From positions 1 through 64,000 of the forward strand of contig QOQW01000019.1 of assembly GCA_003327425.1 (NCBI GenBank): 64,000 nt of DNA, given 5' to 3'. A program made the translations under genes and the position numbers. This DNA is from Candidatus Ozemibacter sibiricus. Lineage in GTDB: Bacteria; Muiribacteriota; Ozemobacteria; Ozemobacterales; Ozemobacteraceae. Below, piece by piece: positions 1,915 to 50,692 of this stretch (positions are counted from its first letter, which is position 1; every line of letters starts with the position of its first letter). The notes below the pieces were generated by a model. It was not told where the DNA came from. It did no database searches and was given only the letters and a program-made list of their open reading frames with translations.

Positions 1915-4900
1915 CTACTGGGTTTTGAATCGGGTGAATTTCCGGTTTGTTCCCACAGTTGTACACAACGTAGAGCCAATAATCTTTTTGAGGCGGTCGG
2001 CGGTCTTGTATTCATTGGCCGTCAGGGCGATATCACCGACCCCCGCCCGGCCTTTGACTTCGATGAACCGGATATCAAGCGCGGTTTTTGGATCTTGGGG
2101 ATGTGGTCGACGGGAAATAAGATCAAAGCCGCGATTCTGGGTTTCCACGCTTTCGACTTCCCAACCTCGGGCGCGTTCATAGGCCATGACGGCTTGAATA
2201 GCAATTTTCTCAACCTCTTCATCCCGGACCATGGGGGCCACACCGGGGGAATCTCTCTCCGGGTGGGGAAGGACCCAAGCTCGGCCATGAAACTTGATAT
2301 CGCTGATCGCGCAAATCCGCTCCTTGGCGAGTTCTTCCCGGCGGGTCTCCAAGCGGGTATTGAGCTCATCGATACGATCTTCCGTCTGCTTGATGTGACC
2401 CATGAGTTGAGGAGTCGAATCGCCCGCCTCTTTCAGGGCGTGGAGTTCGGCCATGCGATGGTTCTGGCGGTCTATCAACTCGTTCAGGCTGATCTCCAGA
2501 TGCTTGGAGATGATCCTGATTTCCTTCTCCCGGTGTTCTGAGATCTGCTGTTGGAACGCCCTCAAGGCTTGCTCATGGAGGGTTTGCTCGATTTGCCGTC
2601 GGTCAGGCAACCTCTGGTCATCCGGGGGCCTGGCTTCCGAACCGGCGGGAATCAGGTCGAGAAAAATCGTCGGTTGCCTGACGAAGATACCCCCATGCAT
2701 GTCGCATTCCATGACGAACAACCGCCGATGCAGCACGTGGCCGCATCCATCTTTTACAGAAGCGGAAAGAACATCGAGCCTTGCAGGTTCGGTCCGATGA
2801 AGATCATAGAATATCGCCCCCCGCAACAAATCCGTCTGGGTCTGGGAAAGCACGTCCTCGCGGATGACCTCGAAGAGCGGATGGCCGGGGGTCACCCACT
2901 CGAGGGTCGGATCGTCGGTCAGCAGCTTTTTATCGAAAGCGATCTGCTTATATTCCCGGCCCAAAGCTCCGAATCTTGGTTCAAGCCGTTCCCCAAGCGG
3001 CCAGAGGTTTTTAGGGACTTTGCCGATTTTGTACAAGTGTTTCCCTTTGGCAATTTCCTTTGGATGGATCCCCGAGAGGGGCCCGGCGGTCAAGAAGAAG
3101 TCTTCGATGACCTCGGGAACCAACCGGCGTTCCCGGGCCTCGGCAGATTTGCCGACGATGGCGGAGAGGTTCAATTCTTTCTTGGCCAAGCCTTCGAGGG
3201 CGGATGAAGTAATACGCCGGAAGCGGTCCAGGTCGATTTCCTGAACGATGCGGTTCTTGATGACCTCTTCGGTCAGGTTGCGGGCATACATCTCTCGGAG
3301 CATCTTCTCGAGCTGATTCGAGGGGAACACGTCGCCAAGAACATTGAAGATTTTCCCGGTACGACATGGATCGAGGTCTTCTTCAATGCTGCGGATGCGC
3401 TCAAACAGCTTGTGCATGACCCGACCTTCCCGGGTGTTCGTCGATACGAAATTGAAAATGAGACAGTCTTTTTCCTGACCGTAGCGGTGGATACGGCCCA
3501 TGCGCTGTTCGAGTCGAACCGGATTCCAAGGGATGTCATAGTTGATCATGAACCAACAGAACTGGAGGTTGATCCCTTCCCCGGCGGCCTCGGTCGCGAC
3601 CATGACCTTGCATGACTCGCGGAACTCACGTTCGGCATAGATGCGGGTTTCCGGCATATCCCGGTTCCCGATCTTCATACCACCGTGGATCTTGGTAACC
3701 GACAACCCCCAATCCCGCAGCTTGCCGACCAGGAAATCAAGGGTGTCCTTGTGCTCGGTGAAGATCAGCAGCTTCATCGTGGGGTCCGCGAAAATTCCCT
3801 GTTCGGTGATGACTTCCCGAAGCTTGGCCAGCTTCGATTCGGTCTCCTTGCCTTCGATCTCGAGGGCAACCTTGATCAGACGGTTCAATTGCAGGATCTC
3901 TTCCCGGAGGTCATCTGGGTCACTCGAGGCAACCACCTCTTCGAGCTGGGCAAGGATTTCAGCCTGTTCTTCTTCTGGCAATTCGTCAAAGTCTTCGGGA
4001 AGTTTGCTCTGGATCTGATGTTGCCGGTGGGCCACCGGATCGGCCAGGATCTTCTCGCGCTTATCCCGCATCCGTTCGAGGCTTCGGCGGACGGCATAGA
4101 TGCTCGAAGCGAAGCGCCTTTGGAGCATGGCCATGGTGAAGCCCAATGCCCGGCCCCGGCTCGAGTCATCCTGAGCGGCTTTGATGGATTGGTCTTCCAC
4201 ATAGTGGGTCAGGGCGTCGTAGAAATCCATTTCTTCGGCGGAAATCTGAAATTCCGATGTGCTGACCCATCGTTTGGTGAAGAGAGTTTTCACCGCTCCG
4301 GTTTCCGGATCGGGAAAGTGAACCAAAGCTTCTTTGATTCGGCGGAGGTAGAAGGGGGCTTCCCGTTGGTTCATCGCCGCTTGAAGACTCCGAATATCCC
4401 CGTACACATCGCGGTCGAGGAGTTCGAGGAACAATCGGAAGTTCTCGGGGTCGCCCTTGTGGGGAGTCGCCGTCATGAGCAGGAAATGGTCGGTCATCTG
4501 GGACAGGGCTTCGCCCAACTGGTACGCCAGCGTCTTCTTGTCAGCATTATAGGCGCTCATCTTGTGGGCCTCGTCGACGATGATGAGGTCCCAATGGCTA
4601 CGGAGCAGGCTTATCTTGGCGTCTTCGATACGGGAGACCCAGGAAATGGAAGTGATGACCTGGTCTCTTTCCTGCCAAGGGTTGGAGCCGTAGTTCGCCC
4701 GCAGGATCTGGCTGTTGATGACATCGAAAGATTCCCGGAATTTGTCCTTCATTTCACGCTGCCATTGAAAGGAAAGGTTGGCGGGAGTGACGATCAGTAT
4801 TCGTTTTATGAGACCCCGAATTTTCAACTCCTTGATGAGAAGGCCGGCCATGATGGTTTTCCCAGCCCCGGGGTCATCGGCCAGCAGGAACCGGATTCGA

Positions 4901-5253
4901 GGGAGTTTCAAGAAATAGTCGTAGACCGCTTCAAGCTGGTGGGGGAGCGGGTCAACGCGGGCGATGGACAATGAAAAGTAGGGGTCATATTCATACGCCC
5001 ACCCCAGGCGAAGGGCTTCAATACCTAAGCGGAACTTCTGGGGATCGCCATCGAATGGTTCTTTCTCGGGCAGGCATTCCAAGACAGCCAATTGATCATC
5101 ATCTAGGACGGCCTCATGTACTTTGTTGGAAGAAAGGCCCCGACCGATGATTTTGATACTCTCGCCCATCGGGATTACAACCAAAATCTGCACCAATTCT
5201 GGAAAAACAGGACCCCGGATGATGACGTTTTCCTTGACCTGATCCTTGTTCAT
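1915..5253 (-). CDS. SNF2-family helicase with C-terminal DUF3883-like domain (DrmD-like); C terminus frameshifted
   Basis: 1112 aa; Walker A DDPGAGKTIMAG, VDEAHKM, MTATPHKGD, ATEAAGEGINLQF...RLEQRMGRIHRYGQ; C-terminal EKIAIQAVMAYERARGWEVESVETQNRGFDLISRR...FIEVKGRAG. Confidence 0.9.
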   Translation of the reverse strand: MNKDQVKENVIIRGPVFPELVQILVVIPMGESIKIIGRGLSSNKVHEAVLDDDQLAVLECLPEKEPFDGDPQKFRLGIEALRLGWAYEYDPYFSLSIARVDPLPHQLEAVYDYFLKLPRIRFLLADDPGAGKTIMAGLLIKELKIRGLIKRILIVTPANLSFQWQREMKDKFRESFDVINSQILRANYGSNPWQERDQVITSISWVSRIEDAKISLLRSHWDLIIVDEAHKMSAYNADKKTLAYQLGEALSQMTDHFLLMTATPHKGDPENFRLFLELLDRDVYGDIRSLQAAMNQREAPFYLRRIKEALVHFPDPETGAVKTLFTKRWVSTSEFQISAEEMDFYDALTHYVEDQSIKAAQDDSSRGRALGFTMAMLQRRFASSIYAVRRSLERMRDKREKILADPVAHRQHQIQSKLPEDFDELPEEEQAEILAQLEEVVASSDPDDLREEILQLNRLIKVALEIEGKETESKLAKLREVITEQGIFADPTMKLLIFTEHKDTLDFLVGKLRDWGLSVTKIHGGMKIGNRDMPETRIYAEREFRESCKVMVATEAAGEGINLQFCWFMINYDIPWNPVRLEQRMGRIHRYGQEKDCLIFNFVSTNTREGRVMHKLFERIRSIEEDLDPCRTGKIFNVLGDVFPSNQLEKMLREMYARNLTEEVIKNRIVQEIDLDRFRRITSSALEGLAKKELNLSAIVGKSAEARERRLVPEVIEDFFLTAGPLSGIHPKEIAKGKHLYKIGKVPKNLWPLGERLEPRFGALGREYKQIAFDKKLLTDDPTLEWVTPGHPLFEVIREDVLSQTQTDLLRGAIFYDLHRTEPARLDVLSASVKDGCGHVLHRRLFVMECDMHGGIFVRQPTIFLDLIPAGSEARPPDDQRLPDRRQIEQTLHEQALRAFQQQISEHREKEIRIISKHLEISLNELIDRQNHRMAELHALKEAGDSTPQLMGHIKQTEDRIDELNTRLETRREELAKERICAISDIKFHGRAWVLPHPERDSPGVAPMVRDEEVEKIAIQAVMAYERARGWEVESVETQNRGFDLISRRPHPQDPKTALDIRFIEVKGRAGVGDIALTANEYKTADRLKKIIGSTLCTTVGTNRKFTRFKTQ

Positions 5254-31000: not shown

Positions 31001-34000
31001 TCACCATTGATAGTAGTACTGCTGCCCCCGGACATCTTGTTCCCGATTGGGCGATACGACCTTCCGGCCTCGATTGAAGGTGGTGGGAACAATCTGGTCA
31101 GGTCGTACTCCCTGTTCGAATTGAATGCCATCCAACCAGACGGAATGCGAGCCCAAGGCGGTCGGGCTCGAATTATCCAGGAGAATGTGGGCCTGGCTGG
31201 CCACGGATTCGTTGAACGCAAGATCCAGAGCGATGAAAATTCGGTAGAAGGTCATCATGGCTCCTCCACCATCTGGCGGATAGAAGGGGAAGGTTTCCGT
31301 CACCCCGACATTGACCAGGTTCGGGCCACCGCCGATGACTTGCCCGGTGGAAGCCACCTCGACGAAATCATAAACCGCTACCGATCCGTCTTCCCGTGTC
31401 TGGGCCAAACCGATACGCACCGACCCTGTCCCGGGGCAGACCCAACCCGACAGAATGAACCGACCAGGAGCGGCAGGCACGGCCGGGAAGGTGGTGGTCG
31501 CGATGGTCTGATACACGGTGCCCGAAGCGAAATTCGGCCCGGTATGCGCCGCCAACACCTCGACCCGGAACTGACACGTATCGACCGCCGCCCCGGCGTT
31601 GCCGCTCAACGCCTGGCCGCCGGTGGGCCCATAGATGCTGGCCATCTGCCCGGCCGGCACCGCGATCCGCACATGAGCGGTGGCGATCCCTCCGGGTGGC
31701 ACGGGATCGGGTAGATACGTCGTGGACGCCTGCAAGGCTCCCACAGGAATGGTATTCCCCAAGCCATCATCCAAGGCCGTAAATGTCCAAGCGAATCCGG
31801 ACAAAGCCACATTGCCGAGATTGCGGAAGCCCACTTCGATCCAGTGGGAAGTGGTACCAGCCGTCAAGGTGCCGAAATCGACCAGGGTCGGCAGCAGATC
31901 GAGAGCCTGGTAGGTCAACACCGTCACCCGCGTGTTGAACGTGGCCGAAGCTTCACCGGGCTGCACGATCCCATCGTTGTTTTCGTCCTCCCAGACCGTG
32001 TGCGTCCCGATGTAGGTTCCGGGCGGGGTGAAGGGAGGAATGGTCAGCGAGGCGACGGCCGCCCGATTGCCTGCCACGTTGATGACGAATGGCGCAGCCG
32101 GGGCGAGGCCCAGGTTCGCGCTGGCGATCGCCACGCTCCCCGACCAGGAGTCGCTGGCCAGCCAGCGAACCCGTTGCAACGGGAAGTCTCCTGTATTGGT
32201 GACCGTGAACCCAGCGGAGGGAATGGCGCCAGGGTTGGCATTCCCGAGATCGACCATCGGGGTGACGGCGATCCCCTTCTTTCCAACTTGTACTATCACC
32301 GAGAAATTGGCATATTCCTCCGCCGCCGGTTGATGAGCCCCATCGGCCGGATTGTAGTCTTCATAGACCAGGAATGTCCCGTTGTAGGTGCCATTGGCCC
32401 GCGGCGCCCCGATGCTGACGCTTACTGTCGCGATGACCGAAGCCCCGACGGGAATGGCCCCGATCGGATCGGAGAAGGTGGCATTGGCCGCCGGAATGGT
32501 ATCGACCCCTCCGACCAGAGCGGCCGATTTCCCGCGAACGAGCGCCAATGGAATATTGCCCACATTTTGCACTTCGATCGGCGCTTGAACGAGGCTGCCT
32601 TCGGTGGCCAACCCGAGATTGAGGGGGTTTTGGATGACCTTGAGAACCCGTTTCGCGTTCACGGTCAGTTGGAGGACGGCGGTGGTGCTCGCTTCGGCCG
32701 CCTGCATGATGGCATCGTTGTTGGAGTCATCCCAGGCCGTCAGTGTCGCCACATAGACTCCGGCGGGGGTCGCCGCCGGAATATTCACCGACCAATACCC
32801 GGTAACGGTCTGGCCCACCAGGATCATGCCGATCGGCGAAGGAGTGAAGACGCTCGCGGTGGCCGGAATGGTGGTGGGCCCGATCAACGCCGTCGCCGTC
32901 GCCCGCGCTCGCGTGATGGTCAACGAACCGTCGTTGTAGACACGGAACGCCTTCTGAAGAGAAGTCGAAGCCGGATCGCCCGAGGTGGTGACGGTGGCAT
33001 CGAGCACATCGAGCGAGACGATGCCGACTTGCACCGCAACTCGGAAATCATCTTGCGGTTCCCCGACGTTTCGAACGGTGTCCGGACTGTCGAAAAGCCA
33101 GGCGGAGCTGCCCAGATAGTCGCCCAAAGCCTGCCCTGCGGGAACATTCAAGGTGATATCGCGATAAAAGAACGCCCCCGCCGGCGCAGAAAATGGCTCT
33201 GCCGGCGGGAAACTGTAATTGGCCTGGCCGATCGTGCCCGGCCCGATCAGATCGACTTTCTCCCACCGGAGTTGGGTCAGATCGGTATTTCCCGTGTTGC
33301 GGCAAGGGATCTGGACGGTTTTGGCGGTTCCGGGGGCCATTCCCCCGAAATCGACGACCGGCACCAGGACCTGGACGGAAGCCGCCGCATCGACCGTGAC
33401 CTGAAGGACGAACGAAGCGGAGGCTTCGAAACTATCGCAGATTTGATTGCCATTCGTATCTTCAAATACCCACTGCACGCCGGAATAAACGCCCAGCGGC
33501 GTCCCAGGGGGAATGTATACCCCAACCGTCACGTTGCCAGTGCCGCCAATGGCCACGGCTGCCGGCAAGCTCACATTCAGGCTCGAAGTCGCGATGGTAT
33601 CGCTCCCGTTGCTCAGGGGGGCGAGAATGGGCCGGAGCTTACTCAAAGGAAGCTCCCCCGTATTAGTCAGCGTCAATGGTGGAGCCGCGAGCGTATTGTT
33701 CGGGGGGGCATGCCCGGCATTGAGAGGACTGGGAGCCAGGGTGAAGGAGATCGTCCCGATTCCGATCCTGACCTGGAAAGTACGGGCCGCCTCCGTAGCG
33801 TTGAGGCTGCTGTTGTTGTCACGGTCATCCCAGAGGGTCCAGGTGGCCAGATAAATTCCGCTTGGGTGCACTGGAGGGATGACCGCCCGCACGGAGGCCT
33901 GGCTGGCCAGCGGTACGGCAAGGAAGCCGGGATTGGTCGGAGTGACCGTGATGGTGGTGGTCGTTCCCACGGTTTGTTGGAATTTCAAGTTGAGAAGGTC

Positions 34001-37000
34001 GAGATTGCCACCATTGAAATAATTGAGGGTCTGGGGATTGGTCGTCAGGTTGCGGGGCCAGTTCCCCAGGTCGATGAGCGACTCTACGGTGAAGACGTTG
34101 GTCTTGGCGGGAACATCGACTTGCACGTTGAATCGATCATACGGTTCACCGATGTCGATCTGCAGATTGCCATTCAGATCGTCATAGACGGCCATCGTCG
34201 CGATATACGAGCCTGAGGCTTGATTGTAGGGCACCCAGAGGGTCGCCGTCGCGGGGCTGGTCGCCCCCGGATTGACCGTGCCGACCGGAGAAGGAGTGAA
34301 GGTCAGATGGACATTGGGGATCTTGGCTCCGCCAGGGCCGTTCAAATCGACCTTATTCCACAATACTGCCACCGCTGTGGCGTTGGCGACATTTCGGACG
34401 GCCCCGGAGAAGGGGCTGCTGTTCTCGCCGGGACCGACCGTGCCGAGGTTCCAGATATCGGGGGTCGCCAGCAAGGCCCGACGGAAAATCCGAATGGAAT
34501 TGGACACCAATTTGCCGGTCGAGGTGGCGATTCCGCTGTTCAGATCGATCCCAGTCGCCGACGAGGCCAGTTGCGCGGTCACCGACAGACTGCCCACCAG
34601 GCCTGTTTCGGAAGCGGCAGTAAACACCCAGCCGAACGTCGCCAGGGAGTTGCCGAACACGGTGAGCGAAGCCGGCGTCGGACCAGAAACCAAGGTCAGA
34701 TCGCCAGTACTTGCGGCTGTCTTGATCAACGCCGAAGCAGTCGCCGGGCTGATGGTCGCCGCGGCCGTCGAGAGATTGTTCCGCAGCGACAGAGAGGCGA
34801 GCACCGTTTCTCCTTCGTACACGCTGGGAGGGGAGAGGGTCAGCGAGCCGATCAGGCTGCCAGGAACTTGAACACTGCAGTATTGAAGAGCCAAAGCCGG
34901 GTTGGATAAGGTGTTGCCATTGGAATCTGGATCATTTTCGATGCTGACCGTCCAGGTGCCGAGCACGGCCGTTCCCGGCAGGACATACAAATGATCCGCC
35001 GTGCCCGAGGCATTGGCTGCCAGCATTGGCGATACGTTGACCCACCCCGTGGGCAAGGTAGGGGTTGGAATGAACGAATTGTACAATCTGATGCGATACC
35101 ACTGCGAGTTCGGGTTGAGACCGAATGCCCGGATGAAAATGGTCTGCCCGCGATTGAAGGAGTATTGCTCGGGGTTATAGGTATCGCTGGCCGACAGCAG
35201 AAGGCCGATGCTGGCGACCGTCCAGGAGTCGTTCGGGGTGGCCGGATTCAGGTAGGTCACCGAAGCCGGCCAGTTGGCATCGTAGGCTCGCAGGCTGGCC
35301 GTCAGCGTTGCCAGACCAGTGGGCGAGTAGAGATCGACGTTCACGCCAAAGGTGAAGGTGGCAACCGTGTTGCCTCCCGCCAAGGCAAATGGCAGTGGCG
35401 GTGAAGCCAACGACTGGGCATACGTTCCGACCGTGATGCTCAAACTGGCGGCTTCGATGATGGCGGTAGCCGAACCGGCATTGCGCAACGCGAAGGTCAC
35501 CGTCACGCCCTGTTGGTTGCGATACACCACGGTCGGCGTCGCCACGACATTCAAGACCTGCAACGCCGGCGGATTTTGAATCCAACACACGTTGCTCGTC
35601 GCCGTGGCGCTGACCAACGGGGTATCATCATTGCCATCGAAGCCGCGTCCACTGACCGAGGCGATCATCGTCCCCGGCGATACGGCGACGAACTGCCACG
35701 TGAACGTCGCCTGCCCATTGCCCGGCACGTCTTGCAAAGCGGGGGTCGGCCCCCCGGTCTGATTGGCTACCCCCGTACCAGAAACGGCCAGCGGGCTGGG
35801 ATAGGCGCTCTTGACAATGGCCCCCCCCGAATTGGTGAAGGTCGAAGTCGCGACGAACGGTTGGCCGACCGATACAAATGGAGGCAGGGCGAGATTCACC
35901 GACAGGCTGGCCGGCGAGACCACAGAGAAAACATTCTCACAAACGATGTAGGTATTGAGGGGATCGGTGATGCGGATACGCCATTGGCCATACGGCGACG
36001 TCGGATCAAGAGAGAAGGCATGAAACAATTCACCATTCAAATCTGCTGTTAAAGGGGGGGTGGAAGAAGCCACTTCAACATTGCCCGGATTGTACCAACG
36101 AACGACAAACTCCCGGAGGGGAGCCAAAACTTCCCCCTTGGCATAGACAACCTTCACTCCACTGGTCGGACGGTTGAAACTTGAAGATTCATACAAGTAG
36201 GAAGCATCTTTGAAGGTTTTGACCTTTTCGGCGATGATGGTCCAACTTGCAGGATACAAGGCCCCTGACGACGTGGCGGTATTGAACGTGTTGAGATCGG
36301 TATACCCGACATCGCCGTCGATCAGATCGCTCCCCGTGGCGGTCAGCGGGTTGACATCCACCCCATAAGTAGCCAGTTGGCTGAAACCGCCCTGGACCGT
36401 CAGCGGAAACACCGTCACAGGGTAGGTGGCATCATAGGTCTTGGGCACCGCAGGCGGCGGCAGGAAGGTGAACTTCAGCACCGATGCATCCCAGCGCGCG
36501 AGGGCTTCCCCGAGGTTGATCACTTCCAGAAGAACCGGGACATTGATCTGCCCTCGGGCGATGAAACTCGGAGCGGTGATCCGGTTCAACACCACATCGG
36601 CAGGGTTCTGAATGGTCCAGGTGTCGGTGATGTCGGCGCTGACATCATCGGTGTTCTTGCCGCTGAAGGTATTGGTTCCGGAAGCCGTTCCGTTGATGAC
36701 GACCACGCCCGAGTCGCTATTGGGCGAGACATTGACCGAAAATGTCGCCACGAATGAGCTGAGAGGCGGGATGATCGTGCCGATCGACGGAGACACCAAC
36801 GTGAACGTATGACTGCCCAAGGAGAACGTGAGGCTGGCTCCATCGAAGGCATAGGGGGTTTCCCCCTGGTTTTCGATCGTCATGCGCACAGGGATCCCCG
36901 ATTGGCCCTTGTTGACGTAGGCGGGCGTCGCATCGATGGAAATGATCGCCAGACGGGCTTTCGACCGAATCCACCACGTGTGTGTCTGATCGGCTCCTTG

Positions 37001-39961
37001 GTCGCCGAAGGTCACAGCCCCATTGGTACCGGTAGCAACCGCATCGACCGTGCTGGTCCCGGTCGGCGAGGTCTCGGACACGCTCACCAGGAAGGTGGCG
37101 ACCAGACTGGCCCCGGGCAGCAGATTGGCCGGCAGGCTCGGCGTCTGCAGAATTTGGCTGTATGCACCAAGACTGAACGTCAGCGAGGCTCCGATGAGAT
37201 TGACCGGGTTGATATCATCATTCCGAATGGTGACCCGTACCGGGATGTTGTCTTGGCCTTGCGACACCCCATTCGGCGTATCGGCCGTCACCGAGACGAT
37301 CGACAGGGCCCGGCAGATCAGGCGGATCTCATTGAGCACCGGCATGGCGCCATTGGCATTGCGCTGGAATATGCAACGGTATTGGAGATAGCGCCGATCA
37401 GGGCTGGGAATGGCGGCCGAGCCGTTGACCTGGGTGGTGGCGACCGTCGACCACGCGCTCCAAGAGGCATCAGGAACAGGCGTGGCGCCGGTGCGCACTG
37501 CGAGAACCAGACGGCCGTTCGCCCCGCCCACGCAATCGTATTGAATGGTCTGCCAATCGGGGGTTTCTGACCGCGCATCGAACACCATCGACTCGAACTG
37601 GGCCACATTGGCCCACCCCCCGGTGGGAGCTTCGATCGCCCCCACGGAATAGCTGCCTCGAAACGCATCGGCGCATTGGTAAAAGGAGGTAGGAGACAAT
37701 CCAATGCCGACTTGGAGAGGAGTGTTGTAGAGATAATTAGTGGTATCCGTATTGGAAATTCCGACCGTGTTGACCGTATTCACAGGCCGGTCAGTACCCC
37801 CTGGACCGATCACGCCCCGAGGGCTCAGGTATTGATACCGATGGCAAATGTCACCATTTCGGTAGAGCACGGTTTGGAAGATATAGATATCATCTACCGC
37901 GCTGTAGCGGTTGGTTCTCCACGTAAAGACCATGCGATCCGGAGCGCTCAGAGTGTTAACGTATACCCCTGGAAGAGTGGGATAATCAACATTGTCGTAT
38001 TTAAGATCGATCCAAAGAGGAGCGATCAATTCATCAAACCTAACAGTGGCCCCCGTGAATTCATTCCAGGTATTTGTATAGTCGTACCCAGCCGTCAAAT
38101 CAGCTGGCCGCCGATAAATAAAGCCATTCGTGGAGACATACCACTGGGTAAGATTGACTCCGAAAAAGTAAAAGTCCCATGGCAGATTTATTGGATCACT
38201 TCGAGCATCGTCGCGATAATACAAAAATTGCCCTGTTCGCTCAAAATGAATACCCGCGTTATAACCAAGATTGTTTGAAATATCGATAGTTACATTTTCC
38301 AGGCCTGGGGAAAGAAGTTTGCGCGAGTAATAAGGAGTCCAGGCAATGGCAGCCGTTTGATTTGTATTGTTGACAAAGCCATAGGATGGATTCGGTGCAC
38401 CCGCATTTCCCCAATGAACAAAATATGTCCGAGTCGAACCCCGAGGCATGTTGACCAGGAATGAGATGTCGGCGTTTGCTACCGTACAACCAGTCAGCAG
38501 AAATCGGCTAACTTCATTACCCTCTTCATCAGAGACCCGAAATTCGTTGATGCTGGCCGGCTGCTGCCCGGCTGGAATGGCGAATTGAACTCGGCAAGGC
38601 GCGTTGATGCGATCGGTGACATTGGGCTCGGTCACCGTGATGGGCACGCGATACTGCCAATACCCCCCGCTGGCGAACGTGCGCGGGCGGATCGAGCCAG
38701 GATCGGTGGTCGTATCGATCATGTACATGGCCCGCCCGTTGTTGAAAAATGTAGACGAAGCCGTATCGACCAGCACGCGGTCGGTCCGCACCACGCACCC
38801 GTTGCTCCCCCCGCTGCTTTGCACCACCCCGAAGGCATCGAGGGCCTGCACCGTGATGTAATACCGGGTTCCGCTGGCCAGGGTCAGCCCGGTCAAGGTT
38901 ACGCGATTGGCCATCCCGACGTCGGTCCAGTTCACGACATTGGTACCGCCGGGAGTGGTTCCGGCGGCGACACGGTACCCTGCCAGGGGCGCGGAGGGGT
39001 GGTCCCAGTTAGCTTCAAGTCGATCGGTGAACAACGACCATTCGATGTCGCGGGTGGGACCATCTCGCACGGCGATGGTGAAAGCCATCGCTTCGACCGA
39101 GTAGGGAGATTCGTCGCCATCGGTGTCGACATCGGTGACCACATAATAGGCAGTTCCCCCTGGGGGGGTCGTGTCGAGGAAACTGTTGGTGGTCACCGTC
39201 GCAATTTGCGTATATGGCCCACCAGAGACCGTCGCCCGGTAGACCCGGTAGTGGGCAAGGGTCGAAGCCCCGGTGCTAGCCTGCCAGGTCAGTTGAACCG
39301 AAGCTCCGCTGGGAGTGGCACGCAACCCAATCGGACTGATGATGAATTTGAGGTTGTCGACATACGCCCCCGCTTGCTCTCCATTATCGCATTGCATATC
39401 CCAATAGACCCGCCAGACATAGGTCGTTCCCGAGGCCAGCGCAATCGGCCCGACCCACCCGGTATCCTGCCACGTCCCATGCAAGGCGGCCCCACTCGTA
39501 TTGGTCTCGGTAAACACCGAAAGAACCACGCTATCGTTAGGGTTGGCGGGAGTCGCATCTTGGGTGTGCAAGCGACAATACAATCGAAAGTTATCGTAGG
39601 CGCCCACCCAGGTATCTTTGTGGGAAAACCTCCCCCAGCCGTTGGCCGGCCCGCCCGTGACCGTGAATGTCTGTTCGATCAACCCATCGCGGGCTTGATT
39701 GTTCGCCGTGCCGACGGCATTTGCATAAAATGAACCCGCCGGATTCCCATCGGCACCTGTCCAGCTCCATGTGCTCATTCCCTGTCCACGCGCCACCAGA
39801 TTGTCGAGCGTCCATCCGAAGTCATTCGAGGTGAACTGCCAGTTCTGAATTTGATTCAATCCAAAAACAGGTGTCCCCATCCCAAGGCCCCAGAGAGCGA
39901 CTTGCAAGGCTACCACCGCCAAAGTTTTGAGGTAGGCATATCGCTTGGTCATACGGTTCAC
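31001..39961 (-). CDS. giant modular surface/secreted protein (fibronectin III-like, DUF2341-like, CARDB-like and repeated calcium-loop modules)
   Basis: 2986 aa; signal-like TLAVVALQVALWGLGMGTPVFG; FN3-like GLRATPSGASVQLTWQAS...; DUF2341-like YWQYRVPITVTEPNVTDRINAPCRVQF...; repeated D-x-N-x-[DN]...E loops. Confidence 0.88.
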   Translation of the reverse strand: MNRMTKRYAYLKTLAVVALQVALWGLGMGTPVFGLNQIQNWQFTSNDFGWTLDNLVARGQGMSTWSWTGADGNPAGSFYANAVGTANNQARDGLIEQTFTVTGGPANGWGRFSHKDTWVGAYDNFRLYCRLHTQDATPANPNDSVVLSVFTETNTSGAALHGTWQDTGWVGPIALASGTTYVWRVYWDMQCDNGEQAGAYVDNLKFIISPIGLRATPSGASVQLTWQASTGASTLAHYRVYRATVSGGPYTQIATVTTNSFLDTTPPGGTAYYVVTDVDTDGDESPYSVEAMAFTIAVRDGPTRDIEWSLFTDRLEANWDHPSAPLAGYRVAAGTTPGGTNVVNWTDVGMANRVTLTGLTLASGTRYYITVQALDAFGVVQSSGGSNGCVVRTDRVLVDTASSTFFNNGRAMYMIDTTTDPGSIRPRTFASGGYWQYRVPITVTEPNVTDRINAPCRVQFAIPAGQQPASINEFRVSDEEGNEVSRFLLTGCTVANADISFLVNMPRGSTRTYFVHWGNAGAPNPSYGFVNNTNQTAAIAWTPYYSRKLLSPGLENVTIDISNNLGYNAGIHFERTGQFLYYRDDARSDPINLPWDFYFFGVNLTQWYVSTNGFIYRRPADLTAGYDYTNTWNEFTGATVRFDELIAPLWIDLKYDNVDYPTLPGVYVNTLSAPDRMVFTWRTNRYSAVDDIYIFQTVLYRNGDICHRYQYLSPRGVIGPGGTDRPVNTVNTVGISNTDTTNYLYNTPLQVGIGLSPTSFYQCADAFRGSYSVGAIEAPTGGWANVAQFESMVFDARSETPDWQTIQYDCVGGANGRLVLAVRTGATPVPDASWSAWSTVATTQVNGSAAIPSPDRRYLQYRCIFQRNANGAMPVLNEIRLICRALSIVSVTADTPNGVSQGQDNIPVRVTIRNDDINPVNLIGASLTFSLGAYSQILQTPSLPANLLPGASLVATFLVSVSETSPTGTSTVDAVATGTNGAVTFGDQGADQTHTWWIRSKARLAIISIDATPAYVNKGQSGIPVRMTIENQGETPYAFDGASLTFSLGSHTFTLVSPSIGTIIPPLSSFVATFSVNVSPNSDSGVVVINGTASGTNTFSGKNTDDVSADITDTWTIQNPADVVLNRITAPSFIARGQINVPVLLEVINLGEALARWDASVLKFTFLPPPAVPKTYDATYPVTVFPLTVQGGFSQLATYGVDVNPLTATGSDLIDGDVGYTDLNTFNTATSSGALYPASWTIIAEKVKTFKDASYLYESSSFNRPTSGVKVVYAKGEVLAPLREFVVRWYNPGNVEVASSTPPLTADLNGELFHAFSLDPTSPYGQWRIRITDPLNTYIVCENVFSVVSPASLSVNLALPPFVSVGQPFVATSTFTNSGGAIVKSAYPSPLAVSGTGVANQTGGPTPALQDVPGNGQATFTWQFVAVSPGTMIASVSGRGFDGNDDTPLVSATATSNVCWIQNPPALQVLNVVATPTVVYRNQQGVTVTFALRNAGSATAIIEAASLSITVGTYAQSLASPPLPFALAGGNTVATFTFGVNVDLYSPTGLATLTASLRAYDANWPASVTYLNPATPNDSWTVASIGLLLSASDTYNPEQYSFNRGQTIFIRAFGLNPNSQWYRIRLYNSFIPTPTLPTGWVNVSPMLAANASGTADHLYVLPGTAVLGTWTVSIENDPDSNGNTLSNPALALQYCSVQVPGSLIGSLTLSPPSVYEGETVLASLSLRNNLSTAAATISPATASALIKTAASTGDLTLVSGPTPASLTVFGNSLATFGWVFTAASETGLVGSLSVTAQLASSATGIDLNSGIATSTGKLVSNSIRIFRRALLATPDIWNLGTVGPGENSSPFSGAVRNVANATAVAVLWNKVDLNGPGGAKIPNVHLTFTPSPVGTVNPGATSPATATLWVPYNQASGSYIATMAVYDDLNGNLQIDIGEPYDRFNVQVDVPAKTNVFTVESLIDLGNWPRNLTTNPQTLNYFNGGNLDLLNLKFQQTVGTTTTITVTPTNPGFLAVPLASQASVRAVIPPVHPSGIYLATWTLWDDRDNNSSLNATEAARTFQVRIGIGTISFTLAPSPLNAGHAPPNNTLAAPPLTLTNTGELPLSKLRPILAPLSNGSDTIATSSLNVSLPAAVAIGGTGNVTVGVYIPPGTPLGVYSGVQWVFEDTNGNQICDSFEASASFVLQVTVDAAASVQVLVPVVDFGGMAPGTAKTVQIPCRNTGNTDLTQLRWEKVDLIGPGTIGQANYSFPPAEPFSAPAGAFFYRDITLNVPAGQALGDYLGSSAWLFDSPDTVRNVGEPQDDFRVAVQVGIVSLDVLDATVTTSGDPASTSLQKAFRVYNDGSLTITRARATATALIGPTTIPATASVFTPSPIGMILVGQTVTGYWSVNIPAATPAGVYVATLTAWDDSNNDAIMQAAEASTTAVLQLTVNAKRVLKVIQNPLNLGLATEGSLVQAPIEVQNVGNIPLALVRGKSAALVGGVDTIPAANATFSDPIGAIPVGASVIATVSVSIGAPRANGTYNGTFLVYEDYNPADGAHQPAAEEYANFSVIVQVGKKGIAVTPMVDLGNANPGAIPSAGFTVTNTGDFPLQRVRWLASDSWSGSVAIASANLGLAPAAPFVINVAGNRAAVASLTIPPFTPPGTYIGTHTVWEDENNDGIVQPGEASATFNTRVTVLTYQALDLLPTLVDFGTLTAGTTSHWIEVGFRNLGNVALSGFAWTFTALDDGLGNTIPVGALQASTTYLPDPVPPGGIATAHVRIAVPAGQMASIYGPTGGQALSGNAGAAVDTCQFRVEVLAAHTGPNFASGTVYQTIATTTFPAVPAAPGRFILSGWVCPGTGSVRIGLAQTREDGSVAVYDFVEVASTGQVIGGGPNLVNVGVTETFPFYPPDGGGAMMTFYRIFIALDLAFNESVASQAHILLDNSSPTALGSHSVWLDGIQFEQGVRPDQIVPTTFNRGRKVVSPNREQDVRGQQYYYQW

Positions 39962-47363: not shown

Positions 47364-48683
47364 ATGATCGGGAAGAATCTTCGGGTGGTTCGTCAGATGG
47401 TGGTTGCCTCGCTGTTCGTGTTGGGCCTGAGCCTGACCCTGCGGGCAGAGAATCTGGTCCTTCTCCACAATGGACACCTTCCCAAGAAGGTGTTGGTGGT
47501 GCTTTCCAATACCACCCGCGATTTCGTGGCCAATCTCATCGAGATCATCGCCAGCATCCACGAGCAGGATGGCCTGACAGGGGAAGACGCCTTCAAGCTC
47601 CACGTGCTGTCCAGTTCGCGGAACGAACGCAAGTCGTTGCCCACCGATCCTGACAAGCTGGCGAAATATGTCGAGTTCAACGACGAGCTGTTCGTCAACG
47701 ACATCTGGATGCAGGACATCGGCGAGTTCTGCGCCGTCGTCGAGAACGGCGTCCGGTCGGAAGCGGTGTTCGATTCCCGCCGCGGCCGCGGGCTGGCGCA
47801 GGTCATGCCCACTCTCGCCCAGACCTGGGGCCAGAAGTATTTCGTCAATCCCAGCACTTCCCTCAGCTGCGGTGATTACGGCGGCAACATCGAAGTCACC
47901 CCCGACAACATCCTCTACTACGGCGACACGATGACCTCGACCTGCGAGCAGTTCCTGCTCAAGAACGGCTACCAGAATCGGGCCGTCAAGCTGCAGACCT
48001 CGTGGCTGCAGGTCGGCCACATCGACGAATACATGACCATCATTCCCAGCCGGCACTCCCGGTGCGGCTACAGCATCGTCCGGGCCGACCCCTGGTATGC
48101 CCTCGACCTCATCGAGGCCGCCAAGGAAGAAGACTTCGCCGCCATGCCGCGCGACATGGGCGATTTCCTGAAGCGGGTGCAGGCCGCCCTCCGCGACCCC
48201 GAGAAATGGAAGAACACCCGCGAAGCGACCTTCATCGAACTCAACCGCAAGATCGGCGAAGTGATCGATGCCAACATCTCCCGCCTGGTCTCGGAAATCC
48301 GCCGCATCACCGGCGACACCTCCCGCGACATTCCCATCATGGCCTGGCCGAACGTCTTCCACAACTTCAACAACGGCCTCAAACTCCAGCACTGCATCGC
48401 CTACACGCCCGGAGTCGCCAACCACCTCGTCCTGCGCGACCACCTCATCGTCCCCGACCCCTTCTTCCCGCCCTTCAAGCGCACCGTGGAAGCCCGCTTC
48501 CGGGCCCAGGGCAACCGTGTCCACTTCATCAATGACATGCCCTATCACAACCTGCAGGGCGAAGTGCACTGCGGCACCAACGTCCGCCGCGATGTGAACC
48601 GCACCCTGATCACGCCCCAGTACACCAACGCCCTCGCCGCCCTGCGCGATACCTTCGATCGCGTCCACCGCGACGTCCGATAA
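47364..48683 (+). CDS. secreted protein-arginine deiminase (PAD) homologue
   Basis: 439 aa; signal peptide to LTLRA; NDIWMQDIGEF, GNIEVTP, QVGHIDEYM, QGEVHCGTNVRRDVN match the PAD Asp/His/Asp/Cys motifs. Confidence 0.85.
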   Translation: MIGKNLRVVRQMVVASLFVLGLSLTLRAENLVLLHNGHLPKKVLVVLSNTTRDFVANLIEIIASIHEQDGLTGEDAFKLHVLSSSRNERKSLPTDPDKLAKYVEFNDELFVNDIWMQDIGEFCAVVENGVRSEAVFDSRRGRGLAQVMPTLAQTWGQKYFVNPSTSLSCGDYGGNIEVTPDNILYYGDTMTSTCEQFLLKNGYQNRAVKLQTSWLQVGHIDEYMTIIPSRHSRCGYSIVRADPWYALDLIEAAKEEDFAAMPRDMGDFLKRVQAALRDPEKWKNTREATFIELNRKIGEVIDANISRLVSEIRRITGDTSRDIPIMAWPNVFHNFNNGLKLQHCIAYTPGVANHLVLRDHLIVPDPFFPPFKRTVEARFRAQGNRVHFINDMPYHNLQGEVHCGTNVRRDVNRTLITPQYTNALAALRDTFDRVHRDVR

Positions 48684-48689
48684 GATCCA

Positions 48690-50078
48690 ATGGAACCCGC
48701 CGCCATGCTGCCGCTGCCTCGCCGCGACCAAGCCCTCCGCCTCCTGCTGGCGGGAAGCCTGTGGCTGGCGGCTTGGTTCCTGATGGCCGGTCCGGTCTGG
48801 GGGGCCGCCAAACCCGCCCCCGACTGGACCTTCCTCGTCTACCTCAACGGCGACAACGACCTCGACGACGTGGTCGACGCCGACCTGGCCGAGATGGAAG
48901 GCGCCGTCCCGGCGCACGCCCGCCTGCTGGTGCTGGTCGATCGGGCCCGGGACGGCGGCCAGCTGCTTCGCTTCTCCGCTGGTCGACGCGAGATCATCGA
49001 ACAGGGCCAGGAACCCGACATGGGCGACTGGCGCACGCTGGCCGCCTTCGCCGAACGGGGCATGGCCCTGGCGCCCGCCCGTCACACCGCCCTCATCATC
49101 TGGAACCATGGCATGGGCTGGAAAGGCCCCGGCGCGGCAGGCTCGCGCGGCATCTCGGCCGATGACACCAGCGGCACGCACATCAAGGCCGACGAGCTGG
49201 GCCTCGCCCTCCGCCAGGTCGCCCAGAAAACCGGCCGCCGCCTCGACCTGCTGGCCCTCGACGCCTGCTCGATGCAGATGGCCGAGGTCGCCTGGCCGAT
49301 CCATCGGCTGTGCGACGTGCTGGTGGCCTCCGAAGAGGTCATTCCCCGCGGCGGCTTCCCCTACGACCGCTTCCTGCGCGACCTGCCCGCCGGCGCCGAC
49401 GCCGAACGCGTCGGCCGTCTGTGGGTGGATACCTATCTCGACGCCTATCGGGGCACCGAGATGCCGGTCACCCTCTCAGCCTGGCGGTGCGGCGATCTCG
49501 CCGAGGTCTTCTACGGCATCGACGGCCTGGCCAAGGCCCTGATCACCTCGGCCGGCGCTCCGGCTCTGTTGAAGAGCGCCCTGCGCGACGTGCAGCGGTT
49601 CACCTGCCGCGACCATATCGACCTGGGGCATTTCACCGACCTGCTGCAGGCCCGCGCCACCGACGATACCGTCACCACCGCCCTGGGCAAGCTGCGCCGG
49701 GCCCTCGATCAAGCACTGATCGCGGGCGGGACCACCGGCGGTCATCTGCGACGCGCCCAGGGCATGGCGATCTACTTCCCCTCTCAGCCTGGCCTGTTCG
49801 CGCCGGCCTACAACGACCTCGGCTTCGCCCGCGCCTCCCAGTGGGACAACCTCCTGGCCGACTATTTCGCCCGCCAGGAGATGCTCACCGTGCTCGCCGC
49901 CGTCGAGGCCGGCGACCCCAGCCGCCTCCCCGCCCTGGCCAGCCGCCTGGCCACCGAACGGCCAGACCTGGCGGCCGATCTGGCCGGGCGTCTGCGCTTC
50001 CTCGCGGTGCAGCACCCCGATCTGCCGGAAGCTTCGCGTCGCGCGGTCGCCGACCTGCTCGATCAGGCCGCCCGCTGA
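48690..50078 (+). CDS. secreted clostripain-family (C11) cysteine peptidase
   Basis: 462 aa; signal-like N terminus; WTFLVYLNGDNDLDD, catalytic His IIWNHGMGWKG, catalytic Cys LLALDACSMQMAEVAW; starts 7 nt after the PAD stop codon. Confidence 0.88.
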   Translation: MEPAAMLPLPRRDQALRLLLAGSLWLAAWFLMAGPVWGAAKPAPDWTFLVYLNGDNDLDDVVDADLAEMEGAVPAHARLLVLVDRARDGGQLLRFSAGRREIIEQGQEPDMGDWRTLAAFAERGMALAPARHTALIIWNHGMGWKGPGAAGSRGISADDTSGTHIKADELGLALRQVAQKTGRRLDLLALDACSMQMAEVAWPIHRLCDVLVASEEVIPRGGFPYDRFLRDLPAGADAERVGRLWVDTYLDAYRGTEMPVTLSAWRCGDLAEVFYGIDGLAKALITSAGAPALLKSALRDVQRFTCRDHIDLGHFTDLLQARATDDTVTTALGKLRRALDQALIAGGTTGGHLRRAQGMAIYFPSQPGLFAPAYNDLGFARASQWDNLLADYFARQEMLTVLAAVEAGDPSRLPALASRLATERPDLAADLAGRLRFLAVQHPDLPEASRRAVADLLDQAAR

Positions 50079-50137: not shown

Positions 50138-50692
50138 ATGGAACCCCAAGAATTTCTCGCCGAGGTACGCCAACGGCTGGGTGTCCCCGCCGGCCGGATC
50201 GTCGACGAACGGGAACTGGCACTGGCCGAACGGAAAAGGCTGGGCCTGCCGGCCAGTCCGCCACATCTGCTCACCGACTACCGCGGGTATCCGGTCAAGC
50301 TCGATTTCATCATCCGGGACGAGCTGCATTTCACCGTCAACGCCCCCATCTTGCACCGCGTCTCGGTCCGCCCCTGGACGATCTTCGATCGCTTCCTGCG
50401 GCTGGTAGGGCTGCTAGCCTGGGCGCCATTCCCCGACCCGACCGAGCAGCGGTTCTTCCTGCAGGGGCTCTCCCCGGAAAACGCCGCTCGCTACCTCACG
50501 CCGACGCATGTCAAGGCTTTCGATGAGCTGTATCCCTTCGCCCACTGGACAGCCAACGAGCGGGGGTACCAATGCCTCAAAGGGGTCGACATCGACGGCG
50601 GCTACACCCCCGCCGACGCCGTTCGCGACCTCGACCTTCTGCTCGACATCGTCGCCGCCGACCAGGCCGCCCGCTCCACCGTCCGCCCCTGA
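50138..50692 (+). CDS. hypothetical protein, 184 aa
   Basis: ATG 50138 in frame of ORF 49310..50692, RBS-like attaggag; MEPQEFLAEVRQRLGVPAGRIVDERELALAERKRLGL... Confidence 0.7.
   Translation: MEPQEFLAEVRQRLGVPAGRIVDERELALAERKRLGLPASPPHLLTDYRGYPVKLDFIIRDELHFTVNAPILHRVSVRPWTIFDRFLRLVGLLAWAPFPDPTEQRFFLQGLSPENAARYLTPTHVKAFDELYPFAHWTANERGYQCLKGVDIDGGYTPADAVRDLDLLLDIVAADQAARSTVRP

Follow-up and report, generated by a model that had tools for sequence, protein, structure and literature searches.

A predicted secreted peptidylarginine deiminase encoded beside a C11 cysteine peptidase in a Riflebacteria genome

Do two neighboring genes, one for a peptidylarginine deiminase (PAD) and one for a clostripain-family (C11) cysteine peptidase, encode enzymes that act together on arginine, or is their adjacency without functional meaning? 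The question is raised by the window analyzed here, a 64,000-nucleotide stretch corresponding to contig C13 of a 5.68-Mb genome (G000) of the phylum Riflebacteria. An earlier note on this DNA had described the two genes and interpreted them as a possible module for the arginine-directed modification of extracellular proteins. Our analysis confirms the observation and partly supports the interpretation. The features of the pair are listed in Table 1. The motif residues of both proteins fall at the codons that had been claimed for them, and the two genes are as tightly spaced as had been stated. An internal ATG at codon 6 is an alternative start for the C11 gene.

Several other features of the window were recorded. 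Just 3′ of the C11 gene lies a 184-aa ORF (50138-50692, +) without a Pfam match. On the reverse strand, a 2986-aa ORF (31001-39961) matches fibronectin type III weakly (2e-7) and possibly encodes a giant surface protein. A SNF2/helicase protein of 1112 aa, also encoded on the reverse strand (1915-5253), has a NO VEIN (NOV_C) domain at its C-terminus, a combination that occurs in some defence proteins.

Table 1. Features of the PAD-C11 gene pair (window coordinates)
Feature	Position	Strand	Basis
PAD gene, 439 aa, catalytic domain only	47364..48683	+	PF03068, PDB phmmer, AF2, Foldseek
Probable Sec signal peptide of PAD, ~residues 1-28 (...TLRA/EN)	47364..47447	+	Sequence and model
Catalytic Asp118 of PAD (PAD4 D350)	47715..47717	+	Invariant, 41/41
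Catalytic His219 and Asp221 of PAD (PAD4 H471, D473)	48018..48026	+	Invariant, 41/41
Catalytic Cys403 of PAD (PAD4 C645)	48570..48572	+	Invariant, 41/41
Intergenic gap, 6 nt	48684..48689	+	PAD stop ends at 48683, next ATG at 48690 (sequence)
C11 (clostripain-family) cysteine peptidase gene, 462 aa	48690..50078	+	PF03415, AF2, Foldseek
Probable signal peptide of C11, ~residues 1-39 (...VWGA/AK)	48690..48806	+	Sequence; model helix 11-32
Catalytic His140 of C11	49107..49109	+	Invariant in 45/45 C11s aligned
Arg153 of C11, predicted autoprocessing site	49146..49148	+	Aligned with clostripain Arg190 (9cip)
S1 Asp191 and catalytic Cys193 of C11 (LDAC)	49260..49268	+	Invariant in 45/45 C11s

The deiminase and its relatives

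The PAD protein matches PF03068 at 1.7e-31 (110.1 bits; gathering cut-off 25) in a Pfam-A scan that returns no other family, and its residues 107-410 align with human PAD1 and PAD4 in a phmmer search of the PDB (7e-18 to 2e-17). The AlphaFold2 model (pLDDT 91.6) predicts a pentein fold, with human PAD4 as the best Foldseek match (3.8e-23, TMq 0.66). Residues were mapped to PAD4 by our own numbering of the phmmer alignment, and conservation was counted over 41 aligned catalytic-domain-only PADs, all of which keep the four catalytic residues. The substrate-binding residues W115 (Trp347), R140/R142 (Arg372/Arg374), and V217 (Val469) are retained (PAD4 numbering in brackets), as are the Ca1 ligands Q117 (Gln349), E121 (Glu353), and E177 (Glu411), which are kept in 38-39 of the 41 relatives. 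Membership in PF03068 and the intact catalytic residues uphold, within the reach of sequence and model, the earlier claim of a PAD active site. The Ca2 site keeps only two of its four ligands, D137 (Asp369) and S138 (Ser370). The Glu351 position is occupied by I119, with Cys, Trp, or Phe in other relatives. The Asn373 position is G141, and Gly is found there in 38/41 relatives.

Signal peptides had been claimed for both proteins of the pair, and a probable one is readable at each N-terminus, where each model also places a helix. In the PAD, it comprises a basic n-region, a hydrophobic core, and a small residue at -1; inspection of this sequence revealed no lipobox. The model contains a helix at residues 3-23 and disorder at residues 21-28. 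Neither PAD_N nor PAD_M gives a Pfam match, and the predicted pentein fold begins at approximately residue 30-38. In the mature protein, the catalytic Asp motif is preceded by only ~90 residues, too few to leave room for PAD_M. Most catalytic-domain-only PADs have ~115-145 residues ahead of this motif, signal peptide counted, and most PADs of cyanobacteria, myxobacteria, planctomycetes, and actinobacteria have ~230-380; the few exceptional rows in either length group are mis-set starts or cut contigs.

The window PAD thus resembles the PADI enzymes of animals (human PAD1-4) and cyanobacteria in its family, its catalytic D/H/D/C set, its Trp347/Arg372/Arg374 equivalents, its Ca1 ligands, and a predicted fold matching that of hPAD4. 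Unlike those three-domain enzymes, it lacks PAD_N and PAD_M, has lost the Glu351 and Asn373 ligands of Ca2, and carries a probable signal peptide. It shares PF03068, a kept Ca1 site, and a lost Ca2 site with the two-domain PADs of actinobacteria and fungi, including the citrulassin lasso-peptide PADs. In other non-cyanobacterial PADs, however, the loss of Ca2 goes together with a divergent PAD_M; the actinobacterial and fungal enzymes carry this domain (PMC8826395), whereas the window PAD does not. No prior description of a catalytic-domain-only PF03068 PAD was found in the open-licence literature.

PF03068 matches are present in 26 of 40 Riflebacteria genomes, including 19 of the 24 from the family, and in 0 of 14 control genomes. 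Set against the <1% of bacterial species that have a PAD (PMC8826395), these counts make PADs near-core in Riflebacteria. The earlier remark that PAD-type genes are uncommon in bacteria therefore holds for bacteria at large but fails for this phylum. In our PAD tree, a quick tree with some long branches, the catalytic-domain-only PADs of Riflebacteria, Cloacimonadota, Walliibacteriota, Muiribacteriota, Bdellovibrionota, and a few other groups lie on one side of a branch, with a support of 81 for the exact set and 99 (starred) once three Bdellovibrionota-like rows join. The earlier note had proposed a phylogeny against animal and cyanobacterial PADs. Its cyanobacterial part sets the window PAD apart, across a starred branch; the tree contains no animal PAD, and nearness to animal PADs was judged through the cyanobacterial enzymes alone. 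By its sequence, the window PAD appears to belong to a secreted clade that has the catalytic domain alone. Its closest named record is "Candidatus Ozemobacteraceae bacterium" CALLCO010000095.1, with 76% PAD identity.

The usual PAD of the family is a different, single-copy form, 41-47% identical to the window PAD and found in most family members (in this genome, G000:C7:359859-361082; loci L082-L097). It lies just 3′ of a sigma-70 gene in 10 of 16 named loci, and in 9 of 16 an acetate kinase gene follows it, frequently after an intervening gene for 3-hydroxybutyryl-CoA dehydrogenase. No functional link is evident in this conserved order, and no protease gene adjoins the single-copy PAD at any of the 16 named loci. 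Beside the other PADs of the phylum, we likewise found neither a protease nor a common partner; their neighbors are radical SAM, T2SSE-like, NadA, TerB, and cyclase genes. In several family members (L067, L068, L071, L073, L074), secreted PADs of a second, longer type (~485-510 aa) also occur; these carry an insertion that separates their His/Asp motif from their Cys motif, and they share no common neighbor. The near-core presence of secreted PADs with a catalytic domain alone may be a more unusual fact than the PAD-C11 pair itself.

The C11 peptidase and its predicted specificity

The second protein matches PF03415 at 2e-41 (143.2 bits; gathering cut-off 25.8) and C11 proteases among PDB sequences at 1e-12. 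The best Foldseek match of its AlphaFold2 model (pLDDT 87.7) is clostripain (9cip, 3.6e-18). It resembles clostripain, PmC11, and globupain in its family, its His/Cys dyad, its S1 Asp, and a basic residue for predicted autoprocessing in a disordered linker (residues 141-152, pLDDT <50). It differs from them in its linkage to a PAD, in an identity of 16-21% to the solved family members, and in its score against the clostripain equivalog TIGR02806, which at 32.9 bits is below the cut-off of 550. The position of Arg153 is basic in all 45 aligned C11s: Lys in 26, Arg in 16, and Arg in the three that are PAD-linked. We rejected Arg153 as a signature of the PAD-linked enzymes, as Arg also occurs in these 16 of the 42 unlinked C11s.

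Cleavage after arginine is plausible from the residues predicted to line the S1 pocket. Asp191 corresponds to PmC11 Asp177 and clostripain Asp229, a residue regarded as the chief determinant of S1 (PMC4850288; PMC11296011). C11 peptidases usually cleave following arginine or lysine, and the P1 range of the family extends from Arg alone in clostripain (PMC11296011) to Arg/Lys in PmC11 (PMC4850288) and Nle/Leu/Asn/Arg/Lys in globupain (PMC12280095). Ile or Val occupies the S1-lining position equivalent to PmC11 Thr204 in the three PAD-linked C11s, and all 42 others of the phylum have Glu there. Our alignment places Val at this position in clostripain, so arginine cleavage by the PAD-linked enzymes is still likely. 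The window protein, with Ile218, is clostripain-like here and keeps Asp191; no single residue fixes Arg over Lys. In the C11 tree, a long branch (1.72) separates the PAD-linked enzymes from the other 42 C11s sampled from the phylum. C11 peptidases are abundant in Riflebacteria, with 4-22 matches in many genomes and few or none in others, and their genes are often arranged as tandem pairs (G000:C47, G001:C166, G002:C97, G003:C108, and others).

Conservation of the gene pair

The PAD-C11 pair is found at three loci: the window (G000:C13), a second place in the same genome (G000:C17), and a second genome of the genus (G002:C95). Gene order is identical, with gaps of 6, ~14, and 15 nt, respectively. 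The second copy in G000 is 57% (PAD) and 56% (C11) identical to the window pair. From gene order and size, the pair in G002 is syntenic with that of the window; its upstream ORFs run in parallel, with sbcD- and sbcC-sized ORFs followed by a reverse-strand ORF at the place of the nitroreductase gene. The remaining genome of the genus, G001 (96% complete), has no pair, and the arrangement is so far confined to two of the three genomes. Conservation of the pair, the lack of which would have counted against the reading in the earlier note, is borne out to this extent: the pair is kept between two genomes and duplicated within one. The neighborhood search that the note had proposed yields these three loci of one genus, and the pairing does not generalize. 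When up to 10 kb of flank was screened at 80 named PAD loci by tblastn and an HMM of 45 C11s, the single positive was an Ozemobacteraceae locus, and none of the other 79 had a C11 gene. We found no description of a PAD-clostripain operon in the open-licence literature.

The PAD and C11 trees have the same topology, ((C13,C95),C17), with starred support of 100/96 and 100/97, respectively. This congruence indicates that the pair predates its duplication. Both genes are under purifying selection, with dN/dS values of 0.29 (PAD) and 0.17 (C11) between C13 and C95 and of 0.31 and 0.35 between C13 and C17. At the second locus of G000 (L061, G000:C17:27000-46000), an M48 peptidase gene lies immediately upstream, and ~2 kb downstream is the gene for an 852-aa protein with a caspase (C14) domain.

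Possible roles of the pair

We regard it as fairly probable that the pair is a two-gene unit for two exported enzymes whose shared targets are extracellular proteins that contain arginine. The first gene would supply a minimal PAD, composed of a signal peptide and a pentein catalytic domain, that acts outside the cytoplasm and turns arginine in proteins or peptides into citrulline. It probably uses one calcium, bound at the Ca1 site, and would lack the PAD_M-driven calcium switch of animal PADs. The second would supply a C11 zymogen that cleaves itself at Arg153 and, once activated, cuts proteins at basic residues, arginine most likely. The processing or breakdown of environmental protein would be the most likely role. 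We infer co-transcription, export, catalytic activity, and shared substrates for the two enzymes; their cooperation is suggested by genetic linkage, for which joint arginine-directed action appears the best reading. Against it stand the confinement of the pair, among the genomes searched, to part of one genus and the setting of the family's usual PAD, which has sigma-70 and acetate kinase genes for neighbors and no protease. The shared unit could also mean mere co-export.

Those same distributions bear on a rival account, in which two unrelated secreted enzymes came to share a transcription unit by chance and their adjacency has no functional meaning. The pair is very narrowly distributed, the core PAD has no protease neighbor, and C11s are numerous (eight in G000), but order and tight spacing have outlasted ~43% protein divergence, both at another place in the genome and in another species. 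We consider chance sharing possible but doubtful. A route for nutrients, in which PAD and protease free citrulline peptides that feed ornithine carbamoyltransferase (OTC) and carbamate kinase to yield ATP, in place of a free-arginine deiminase, would fit the arcC and OTC matches above cut-off in G000 and the lack of an arcA match in all three genomes of the genus. However, OTC is near universal, arcC has other roles, and there is no transporter link; the route is weakly supported because an arcA-like gene coexists with a PAD in several family members, and we judge it quite improbable.

The remaining alternatives concern how the two enzymes might meet at arginine. Citrulline is a neutral residue, and an acidic S1 pocket should reject it. 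The S1 pocket of PmC11 is acidic (PMC4850288). The PAD could serve as a protector or brake instead of a partner in degradation, citrullinating the organism's own or its neighbor's proteins, possibly C11 Arg153, and so blocking cleavage or activation. The predicted activation site is indeed Arg in all three PAD-linked copies, but the unlinked C11s have Arg (16/42) or Lys (26) there as well, and this gating seems unlikely. Cleavage after PAD-made citrulline by a shifted S1 pocket is very unlikely. Besides Ile/Val in place of the Glu of the 42 others, the PAD-linked C11s carry Arg where PmC11 has Ala206 and Gly/Ala where it has Asp207; these changes represent one substitution event on one branch, Asp191 is kept, and the Val that strictly Arg-specific clostripain has at the Thr204 position led us to mark this reading down.

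Joint action on arginine-containing proteins, our preferred reading, is analogous in idea to PPAD and the Arg-gingipains of Porphyromonas gingivalis, in which an exported deiminase accompanies arginine-directed cysteine proteases. Arg-gingipains are clan CD cysteine proteases of family C25, not C11. PF03068 PADs are phyletically distinct from PPAD, which is itself an extended agmatine deiminase (PMC8826395), and the window PAD, with PF03068 as its sole Pfam-A match, is not of PPAD type. As a tentative and rather speculative extension, secreted catalytic-domain-only PADs may be a core trait of Riflebacteria on which one genus built a dedicated module, with PAD and an arginine-directed C11 working on the same residues by competition, gating, or sequential action. 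Such a module would be an independent counterpart of the PPAD-gingipain system, assembled from two unrelated parts.

To our knowledge, protein citrullination has been studied almost solely in animals and P. gingivalis. A PAD without calcium-switch domains offers a test of how much calcium control resides in the catalytic domain and is possibly a small, handy enzyme. Paired with a basic-residue protease, it opens the question of deimination versus cleavage to direct testing with a pair of purified proteins. Bacteria with secreted PADs as near-core genes would provide a natural context for extracellular citrullination in which no animal host is apparent.
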